Origin: Pseudomonas sp. P8_229
GTDB lineage: Bacteria > Pseudomonadota > Gammaproteobacteria > Pseudomonadales > Pseudomonadaceae
Reading direction: 5' to 3'
Length of the DNA stretch: 64,000 nucleotides
NCBI RefSeq assembly: GCF_034008635.1
Contig: NZ_CP125378.1
Location: forward strand, 6,301,051 to 6,365,050
How positions within the stretch are numbered: the first letter of the stretch is position 1; each line of letters opens with the position of its first letter. Shown here piece by piece: positions 34,815-36,071 of the stretch. The notes under the pieces were generated by a model that worked only from the letters and a program-made list of their open reading frames with translations, was not told where the DNA came from and did not search any database. Position numbers and translations under genes: made by a program.

Positions 34815-34842
34815 ATTCGCGAGCAGGCTCGCTCCCACAGGG
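34815..34842. repeat. REP, left half of a REPIN split by the IS110 element
   Basis: attcgcgagcaggctcgctc and following bases form one arm. The opposite arm is cut by the transposon: its outer part (actgtgggag) ends at 34874 and its core (cgagcctgctcgcgaag) resumes at 36051. Confidence 0.8.
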
Positions 34843-34897
34843 ATTTTCGCAACGCCCGAGATCCACTGTGGGAGATTCTATGGTTCATGCCTAGCCC

Positions 34898-35845
34898 CTA
34901 AACGGCTTTAGGTGAGTATTCGCTCTGGTTTTTCAACAGAGCAAATACCACCCGGGCAAGCTTGCGGGCTAGTGCGACCAGTGCTTGGGTAGTGCTCAAT
35001 CCGCGCTCTCTTAAAGCCTCATAAAACCCTTTCCACGCCGAGGTCCGGCTCGCCGCCATTGCAGCGTTGTGCAGCAATCGACGTGCCTCTGAGTCGCCTC
35101 GTTTGGTCAGGCAGCGACGGCCTTTCTTTTTGCCTGAGTCCGATATGCGCAGATCCAGGCCTAGAAAGGCGATGAAAGCGTCGGCATTCCTGAAGTCCCC
35201 ACGCTGAAAGGATGCGAGCAAGCGGGCGCCGGTCAACGTACCGATGCCTTCTACCTTCATGCAACGCTTGAGCTGAGCGCCTAAACCGGCTTCGTCTATC
35301 TGCGCCAGGATCGTTTTCTCCAGCAGGATTTCCAGTCTTTGCATGGCGTTTATCTGATTTTTGAAAGCGGTTTTGAGCAATGGCTCATTCTCCCAGCTCT
35401 GCTTGAGGCTGACACGAGCCTGGACCAGAGCCGCACGGCGCCGGAAAAGACTGATGAGCCGGCAATACAAGGGCGACGGCGGTGTCCAAGGGCGTAAGTG
35501 GTCCCCTTCGTTTGTCAGATAACGGGCCAGTAATCGGGCATCCAGCGCATCAGTTTTGGCGCGAACGTTCACGCCTTTGCGGTAATGGCTGAGCTCATAA
35601 CCGCCAACCATATAGATCACGCAACCATCGGCATACGCCAGATCAGCAAATTCCTGGTGATAGATATTGGTGGCTTCGATGGCGATTGCCACTGGCTTGG
35701 CAGCGGTTTTGAGCCATTTCTTGATCGCCGCTTTGGTATTGGAGATTGTCTCGAGCTGATCTGATTCGGCGTGATAAATCACCAGTTCGTCCTTGGCGAC
35801 ATCAACCCCGATAATCGACTGAGTGGTAACGACGGGCATTGCCAT
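34898..35845 (-). CDS. IS110 family transposase (DEDD recombinase)
   Basis: A 315-residue transposase with the N-terminal RuvC-like DEDD domain (GVDVAKDELVIYH, IAIEATNIYHQEF, AKTDALDARLLARYL) and the C-terminal Tnp domain with GIGTLTGARLLASF and RRLLHNAAMAASRTSAWKGF carrying the conserved serine. It is full length for the family, with no frameshift. GGAGG lies seven bases upstream of the ATG at 35845. The element is therefore probably active or recently active. Confidence 0.93.
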   Translation of the reverse strand: MAMPVVTTQSIIGVDVAKDELVIYHAESDQLETISNTKAAIKKWLKTAAKPVAIAIEATNIYHQEFADLAYADGCVIYMVGGYELSHYRKGVNVRAKTDALDARLLARYLTNEGDHLRPWTPPSPLYCRLISLFRRRAALVQARVSLKQSWENEPLLKTAFKNQINAMQRLEILLEKTILAQIDEAGLGAQLKRCMKVEGIGTLTGARLLASFQRGDFRNADAFIAFLGLDLRISDSGKKKGRRCLTKRGDSEARRLLHNAAMAASRTSAWKGFYEALRERGLSTTQALVALARKLARVVFALLKNQSEYSPKAV

Positions 35846-35874
35846 GAGAAATCCTCCGGGCTAAGGTTTGAACG

Positions 35875-36036
35875 CTTGAAGGGTTCACCCAGAGGCGCAG
35901 GCTTGTTCCTATCGTCGGTCTAGGCCAGATGCATTCTTTATCGGCGCTTGGGTGAAAGGAGGAGGGGTGAAATCTCCCACGGTCTGTACTGCGCTAACAG
36001 TCAGAATCGAGCCTTGTCCCTCCTCCTCCCTTCAAG
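35875..36036 (-). ncRNA. candidate IS110 bridge RNA
   Basis: Three stems abut without gaps: 35875-35883 pairs with 36028-36036, 35884-35890 with 35950-35956, and 35957-35966 with 36018-36027, a perfect three-way junction with two large loops. The loop 35967-36017, read on the minus strand, contains AGGCTCG and GTGGGAG. These match, respectively, the target sequence left of the crossover and the complement of the target to its right. The loop 35891-35949 carries AGAAT and ACAAG, which fit the element's two ends. This is the layout of the target- and donor-binding loops of IS110 bridge RNAs, encoded upstream of the recombinase. The RNA limits are approximate. Confidence 0.75.
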
Positions 36037-36050
36037 TCCTACCATACAAG

Positions 36051-36071
36051 CGAGCCTGCTCGCGAAGAGGC
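36051..36071. repeat. REP, right remnant beyond the IS110 element
   Basis: cgagcctgctcgcgaagagg continues the REP interrupted at 34874. With the 34815 arm it would form an ordinary REPIN once the IS is removed. Confidence 0.8.

Follow-up and report, generated by a model that had tools for sequence, protein, structure and literature searches.

The locus described here raises the question of how an insertion sequence comes to lie exactly within a REP, and of whether that site is chosen by the recombinase or by an RNA which the element itself would encode. The window, i.e., the whole stretch of 64,000 nucleotides of Pseudomonas DNA that was analysed, contains an IS110-group insertion sequence on the minus strand at 34875-36050 (1,176 bp including one CT core, which reads AG on the plus strand), the ends of which were defined from the eight copies in its own genome and from empty orthologous sites. 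Read in the minus-strand direction, the flanks give TTCGCGAGCAGGCTCG, CT and CCCACAG in turn, a REP split at the CT core, and the junctions with the element run from TTCGCGAGCAGGCTCG into CTTGTATGG on the left and from CCATAGAAT into CTCCCACAG on the right. The left half of the interrupted REP occupies 36051-36064 (minus strand), with the left target AGGCTCG at 36051-36057, and the right half, comprising the core CT plus CCCACAG, occupies 34866-34874 (minus strand), with the right target CTCCCAC at 34868-34874. At orthologous loci lacking the element the REP is intact in two relatives (G029 and G011) and degraded in a third (G021); these empty sites thus fix the element ends and leave no duplication beyond the core. 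The exact insertion at an AG core claimed by the initial annotation is borne out by flanks and empty sites alike, and insertion around a dinucleotide core without further duplication is a trait of the IS110 group.

All eight copies in the host Pseudomonas genome lie between REP halves, and their 205-nt upstream regions are identical. The RNA region has eight matches in this genome, which are the eight elements, with none found separate from an element; ISPpu9, in contrast, has detached ssr9 copies. Plasmid and phage records gave no DNA match. The REP pattern used has six intact matches in the window, and the target REP is the second of two inverted REPs (34816-34838 and the interrupted site) lying between two genes, which we take by eye to be a sulfatase-like gene and a gene for a large membrane protein.

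Within the element, 205 nt of non-coding sequence lie 5′ of the gene and 23 nt lie 3′ of its stop codon, which is the layout of the IS110 group; IS1111-group elements carry the RNA in the right end, 3′ of the gene, whereas here the non-coding region is upstream. The gene (34898-35845, minus strand) encodes a transposase/recombinase of 315 amino acids which carries both IS110-family domains, PF01548 and PF02371, passes the NCBIfam model NF033542 (“IS110 family RNA-guided transposase”) and can be aligned from residue 11 to residue 307 with the structures of IS621 (PDB 8wt6, E 4.7e-21) and ISCro4 (9t56, E 4.8e-18). In the IS621 alignment the DEDD and serine residues correspond to D15, E57, D99, D102, and S237, so that the DEDD RuvC-like domain and the C-terminal Tnp domain with its conserved serine, both traits of the group, are present. 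The four acidic residues were placed using what we take to be the DEDD numbering of IS621. For the catalytic serine of IS621, its published account gives S241 (PMC11208158).

The left-end non-coding region (35846-36050, minus strand) is predicted to encode a bridge RNA, a prediction which draws on folding, a 48-sequence alignment and covariation. As the initial annotation had it, the 205 nt fold (-69.7 kcal/mol) into three abutting stems with zero unpaired junction bases. P1 closes the structure (5′ arm CTTGAAGGG, 36028-36036; 3′ arm CCCTTCAAG, 35875-35883), P2 is the first hairpin and bears the target-binding loop (5′ arm AGGAGGAGGG, 36018-36027; 3′ arm CCCTCCTCCT, 35957-35966), and P3 is the second hairpin and bears the donor-binding loop (5′ arm TTCACCCAAGCGC, 35944-35956; 3′ arm GCGCCTCTGGGTGAA, 35884-35898), all on the minus strand, as is a further stem-loop at 35983-36005 which separates the two target guides. 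Fold energy alone is weak evidence, with a z-score of -1.58 and 13 of 200 shuffles folding as well. The relatives were compared in an alignment of 48 upstream regions drawn from 57 distinct ones, with a maximum of two per lineage, a lineage being a single-linkage cluster at ≥94% transposase DNA identity. Folded singly, 39 of the 48 regions yield the same three helices as their best fold and nine do not, and the number of distinct non-empty helix sequences is 28 for P1, 19 for P2, and 22 for P3.

Changes on both sides of a pair were found in 12 of 38 pairs, against 5.6 in shuffled alignments (0/500 reached the observed value) and 3-8 when the structure was slid along the alignment; they affect three of the nine pairs in P1 and four of the seven in the stem-loop between the guides. 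For the covariation score the values are 0.084 in the real structure, 0.059 in shuffles (0/500) and 0.041-0.078 in slid versions, of which the version slid by +3, at 0.078, comes close to the real structure. The proportion of cells able to pair is 87.5%, as opposed to 34-51% when the structure is slid, and the number of pair types in the 48-sequence alignment has no excess over shuffles (444/500). The both-side changes in P1 come from L027 (one pair), L036 (one), L235 (three), and L082 (two), the last of which has a best fold with a 5′ stem-loop and without P1, despite its two both-side P1 changes on the alignment. MAFFT misaligns P2 between lineages with GGAGGAGG stems and those with GGTGG stems; the pair counts for P2 are probably too low as a result, and single-sequence folds were used alongside. 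Covariation, and not energy, thus supports the predicted three-helix fold, and the prospect that the stems would lack covariation can be set aside. No Rfam family matched the window at gathering scores. A promoter scan of the integrated copy found none, and in the rejoined element ends there is no clear sigma-70 promoter, the left end offering a -10-like TATGNT with -35 candidates matching at 1-4 of six positions.

Both words which the initial annotation assigned to the target guides are located in the first loop of the predicted RNA. The left guide AGGCTCG (36008-36014, minus strand) equals the left target and would pair with the bottom strand; AT follows it (36006-36007), so that of the CT core only the second base is matched. 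With the right guide GTGGGAG (35974-35980, minus strand), which is complementary to the top-strand CTCCCAC, both core bases are matched. Next to it, AT at 35972-35973 (minus strand) is a candidate handshake guide for the donor AT under the handshake rule described in PMC11208158.

In the second loop, AGAAT (35933-35937, minus strand) is a candidate left donor guide for the element right end, ATAGAAT, and ACAAG (35902-35906, minus strand) a candidate right donor guide for the left end, which begins CTTGT; the base positions reported for IS621 imply the same right donor, CTTGTAT (PMC11208158). Nearly all copies used end in CATAGAAT and CTTGTATG, and the loop keeps GAAT and CAAG. Ends were recognised by the words CATAGAAT and C[TC][TC]G[TG]ATG, a requirement that favours constant ends. 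The donor guides fit a pairing with the joined ends, these being nearly invariant and also used as search anchors. That both words occur in this loop and suit the two ends, as was proposed, holds to that extent; as a statement about donor guides it was too strong, given ends that hardly vary.

A candidate handshake base, C at 35901 (minus strand), could pair with target base -1, as judged from the sequence and from a variant in cluster 31. This C accompanies G at target base -1 at 162 sites, it is replaced by G where the target base is C throughout the five sites of cluster 31 (one lineage), and in cluster 37 it is T, with the target base C at three sites and G at one. The copies L207-L211 of G080, in which both the handshake base and target base -1 are changed, have a right end about 200 nt further from the end of the aligned transposase, with a REP-like stretch in between. 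Around the donor lies a subterminal inverted repeat, ACCATA/TATGGT (34879-34884 and 36041-36046), of which a variant AACATA accompanies TATGTT. These repeats measure 4-7 bp across the relatives (6 or 7 bp in 37 of 43 lineages) and so fall between the published values of 2-3 bp (IS110 group) and 7-17 bp (IS1111 group).

The agreement between guide and target was followed in relatives of the element. From 207 loci, 19 failed the full-length filter, including five G301 copies (L198-L202) whose alignment started at residue 17, which left 188 full copies in 46 lineages; 38 loci from searches with the RNA region and the REP pattern were excluded as elements. Ends were not recognised in seven of the 188 copies, of which five, all of cluster 31, were restored by a separate rule and two (L034 and L072) were left out. 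The remaining 186 copies with both ends located gave 171 unique sites in 44 lineages once 14 duplicates and a site at a contig end (L069) had been taken out. At most five copies were used per genome other than the host, and right guides were extracted via a list of four guide words seen in the alignment. One omitted copy, L034, the single copy in G091, retains the target loop and is missing the entire donor loop; it is probably a dead copy. Two further copies (L030 and L180) lie on one contig (G066:C45) with starts about 1.35 kb apart, and many relatives (e.g., L017, L027, and L237) have a strong hairpin just past the transposase stop, GGTTGAGGG/CCCTCAACC and variants, which is weak in the window copy.

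Compared in fixed register with the seven bases before the core, the left guide matches 7/7 at 95 sites, 6/7 at 47, 5/7 at 15, 4/7 at three, and 1-2/7 at 11, and it is complete at 112 of the 171 sites once G-U type pairs are counted. The right guide matches 7/7 at 160 sites and 6/7 at the other 11, and both guides are fully matched (14/14) at 87. When guides were reassigned among lineages, none of 5,000 trials did as well for either guide (left, observed mean 6.02 against 4.71; right, 6.94 against 6.64). Only the zero register fits, with a left mean of 6.16/7 against 0.7-3.0 elsewhere and a right mean of 6.94 against 0.3-4.4. Eleven of the 18 sites with left fits of 4-5/7 belong to clusters 28, 29, 32, and 33. 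Clusters 38 and 41 have a loop with one extra base and account for nine of the 11 poor sites; shifted by one base, these match 7/7 at one site, 6/7 at seven, and 5/7 at one. At L240 (G214) the insertion is one base off the usual register, AAGCTCGG followed by CT, and the guide matches 7/7 one base further out. The sole site without a left-guide match even after a shift (2/7) is L019, with the left flank TTGGTAG. At L019/L074 (G186, P. fluorescens ISL-62) a 16-base stretch, CTCCCACATTTGGTAG, occurs to either side of the element.

Changed targets are accompanied by changed guides. L026 and its sisters have the target AAGTTCG-CTCCTAC with the guides TAGTTCG and GTAGGAG, and L235 combines the right target CTCCTAC with the right guide GTAGGAG, its left guide matching just 5/7. 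L082, from a Woeseiaceae MAG, lies in a target that is not a REP, CGGTCCG-CTTTATT, which its guides CGGTCCG and AATAAAG match at 14/14; it has 47% protein identity, the same element ends and an RNA which folds with an IS621-like 5′ stem-loop. The counter-case is cluster 31, in which the right guide GTGAGAG is found on CTCCCAC targets (6/7) at five sites. On the recombinase tree at least 21 left-guide changes are required. Phylogenetically independent pairs include none against prediction, with three to five on supported branches per position and no position significant. As in the IS110 group, the target guides covary with the target, the left guide with respect to the bottom strand and the right guide to the top strand. 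Unchanged loops at unrelated sites, which would have spoken against guidance, are not what the 171 sites contain: loops change with the target, L019 being the one left-guide exception.

A single genome holds REPs of more than one kind, and availability was measured as the counts of five REP variants, plus a sixth class, in 43 genomes. Among 137 sites in the G genomes, 31 fell outside the five counted variants, leaving 106 sites in 36 genomes; the left guide of clusters 38 and 41 was shifted one base in the main abundance test, the host-pool test and the tree analyses. Guides match on average 6.415 bases where abundance would give 5.985, and 0/100,000 simulations reached the observed value; the fixed-register version gives 6.094 against 5.676 (0/100,000). 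For the host genome alone the mean is 6.625 against 5.539 expected (78/100,000); AGGCTCG REPs, of which the genome has 241, hold six of its eight copies, and the remaining two lie one each in AAGCTCG (62 present) and AAGCCCG (674 present). In 16 genomes some other variant outnumbers the best-matching one, and the 47 sites there also follow the guide on average (0/100,000).

Several genomes do not prefer the exact variant. With the guide AAGCTCG, G100 has two of three insertions in AAGCCCG; with the guide AGGCTCG, the insertions of G139 (0/4 exact), G205 (2/2 not exact), and G290 (3/4 not exact) lie in AAGCTCG, a G-U type pair; with the shifted guide AAGCTCG, those of G128 (3/3 counted) and G383 (4/5) are mostly in AGGCTCG; and G213 has one insertion in each of three variants. 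Guides also fit the REP pool of their own host better than shuffled guides do (5.939 against 5.466, 0/20,000; 40 genomes, host kinship uncorrected). The RNA-guided targeting of REPs under the published strand rules, which the initial annotation had put forward, is thus supported both by guide-target covariation and by site choice controlled for abundance.

These results bear on three other ways of explaining the locus. The recombinase could itself recognise the shape or sequence of the REP, the loop matches being a by-product of shared history, and it is true that the REP body word TCGC lies upstream at 160 of the 171 sites and that PMC1525189 ascribes to the transposase the REP-directed insertion of two IS3-family elements. 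Yet in genomes with several REP variants the insertions track the guide beyond abundance, and closely related recombinases with different guides are found in different variants, as in cluster 12 (AAGCCAG) and its sister cluster 19 (AAGCCCG) or cluster 40 and cluster 44. The word TCGC is absent from 11 sites, where L149, L059, L165, L029, and L178 still match the guide at 6-7/7, so that several non-REP sites retain guide-matching bases, and the target of L082 is unrelated to a REP. Recognition by the protein is accordingly very improbable, and the relatives, from dozens of Pseudomonas genomes, indicate that the guides, more than the shape of the REP, choose which REP receives the element.

It is less probable still that the upstream fold serves as a leader controlling translation of the transposase mRNA and not as a guide. 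There is a precedent in ISPpu9, whose 244-nt structured 5′-UTR and antisense RNA affect transposase expression according to PMC8450116, and the region here ends, by eye, at the transposase ribosome-binding site; however, nothing requires a leader to covary with the site of insertion, whereas both loop segments do so, in the register and strand order of a bridge RNA. The region may have a regulatory role besides guiding. Chance is a negligible contender: the genome holds 228 exact REP 14-mers, and with REP-like words so abundant two 7-base matches within 205 bases might be accidental, as the unremarkable fold energy would allow, but the guide shuffles, the register slides and the abundance-controlled site choice refute it. 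We therefore favour, with a probability of about 0.93, an IS110-group element whose left end encodes a bridge RNA that selects REPs by guide pairing.

To what was observed, namely the element, its exact insertion, a recombinase of known family with its catalytic residues, a covarying fold, guides that covary with their targets and insertions that follow the guide within genomes, published relatives add the outline of a mechanism. By analogy with them, the recombinase would excise the element as a circle; the first loop of the RNA would select a REP through two pairings around the CT core, of AGGCTCG to the bottom strand and of GTGGGAG to the top strand; the second loop would hold the joined ends of the element itself; and strand exchange at CT would insert the element without further duplication. 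Production of the RNA and its binding to the recombinase would likewise be expected from these relatives.

The mechanism itself is not new, RNA-guided REP targeting by IS110-family elements being in print in PMC11208160 and PMC11187229. What the clade offers is a natural data set of 44 lineages and 171 sites with REP counts for 43 genomes, in which the REP variants a host holds and the element leaves unused act as an internal control, and in which an RNA-guided recombinase appears to retarget by small changes in one loop with little change in the protein. Two questions thereby become testable, namely how new guides take hold in nature and whether a synapse uses one bridge RNA or two. The structured 5′-UTR of other REP-dwelling elements such as ISPpu9 may, by extension, be a guide RNA as well as a leader. 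Among the titles and opening lines of abstracts in a limited collection of literature on bridge RNAs or IS110 elements with REPs, Pseudomonas and guide evolution, none dealt with guides following host REP repertoires.

The closest comparison is with IS621 of Escherichia coli (IS110 group; structures 8wt6-8wt9), which the element resembles in its recombinase domains and aligned catalytic residues, in having the RNA in the left end, a CT core, a left guide to the bottom strand, a right guide to the top strand and a REP target, and, going by the base positions given in PMC11208158, in the right donor CTTGTAT, the donor AT before the core and handshake bases that fit. The right guide is 7 nt here and 4 in IS621, extendable to 7. 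IS621 has a 5′ stem-loop, which that account calls structurally conserved among IS110 orthologues (PMC11208158); in contrast, the RNA here is without one and its P1 closing stem holds both loops, and only L082 has a 5′ stem-loop among six folds inspected. The linker between the stems of the target and donor loops is 0-5 nt in the 39 junction folds, as against nucleotides 99-109 in IS621, where the target loop at its 3′ end and the donor loop at its 5′ end are placed about 80 Å from each other, hence two RNAs per synapse (PMC11208158). With so short a linker, one RNA could not serve both DNAs and two would be required if the geometry is shared. At somewhat short of even odds, the clade represents natural and continuing guide reprogramming, with at least 21 left-guide changes, guides fitted to host REPs and a donor loop and ends which are near fixed, combined with a compact RNA that makes two RNAs per synapse obligatory.

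Likeness to the other REP-dwelling elements is of varying depth. ISPpu9 and ISPpu10 of P. putida KT2440 (IS110 family) have seven of seven copies each in REPs at one position, and their insertions carry a 2-bp repeat, AG for ISPpu9, a resemblance by description only, from PMC1525189 and PMC8450116; ISPpu10 is also one of six elements given a predicted bridge RNA in PMC11208160, which describes such RNAs, finds covariation over 5,511 target pairs and names REPs as targets. ISPa11 of P. aeruginosa (IS1111 group) shares the REP target, and its seekRNA co-purified with the transposase, but its RNA lies downstream of the transposase and that of the present element upstream; ISEc21, of IS110 type and with a seekRNA, shares the upstream non-coding region and a bottom-strand match before the top-strand match, although its target is linear and in IS3-family genes while the targets here are REPs (PMC11187229). 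We place the element in the IS110 group as a new member whose predicted bridge-RNA fold is compact, and its clade provides unusually clean natural evidence of guide-directed choice of REPs.
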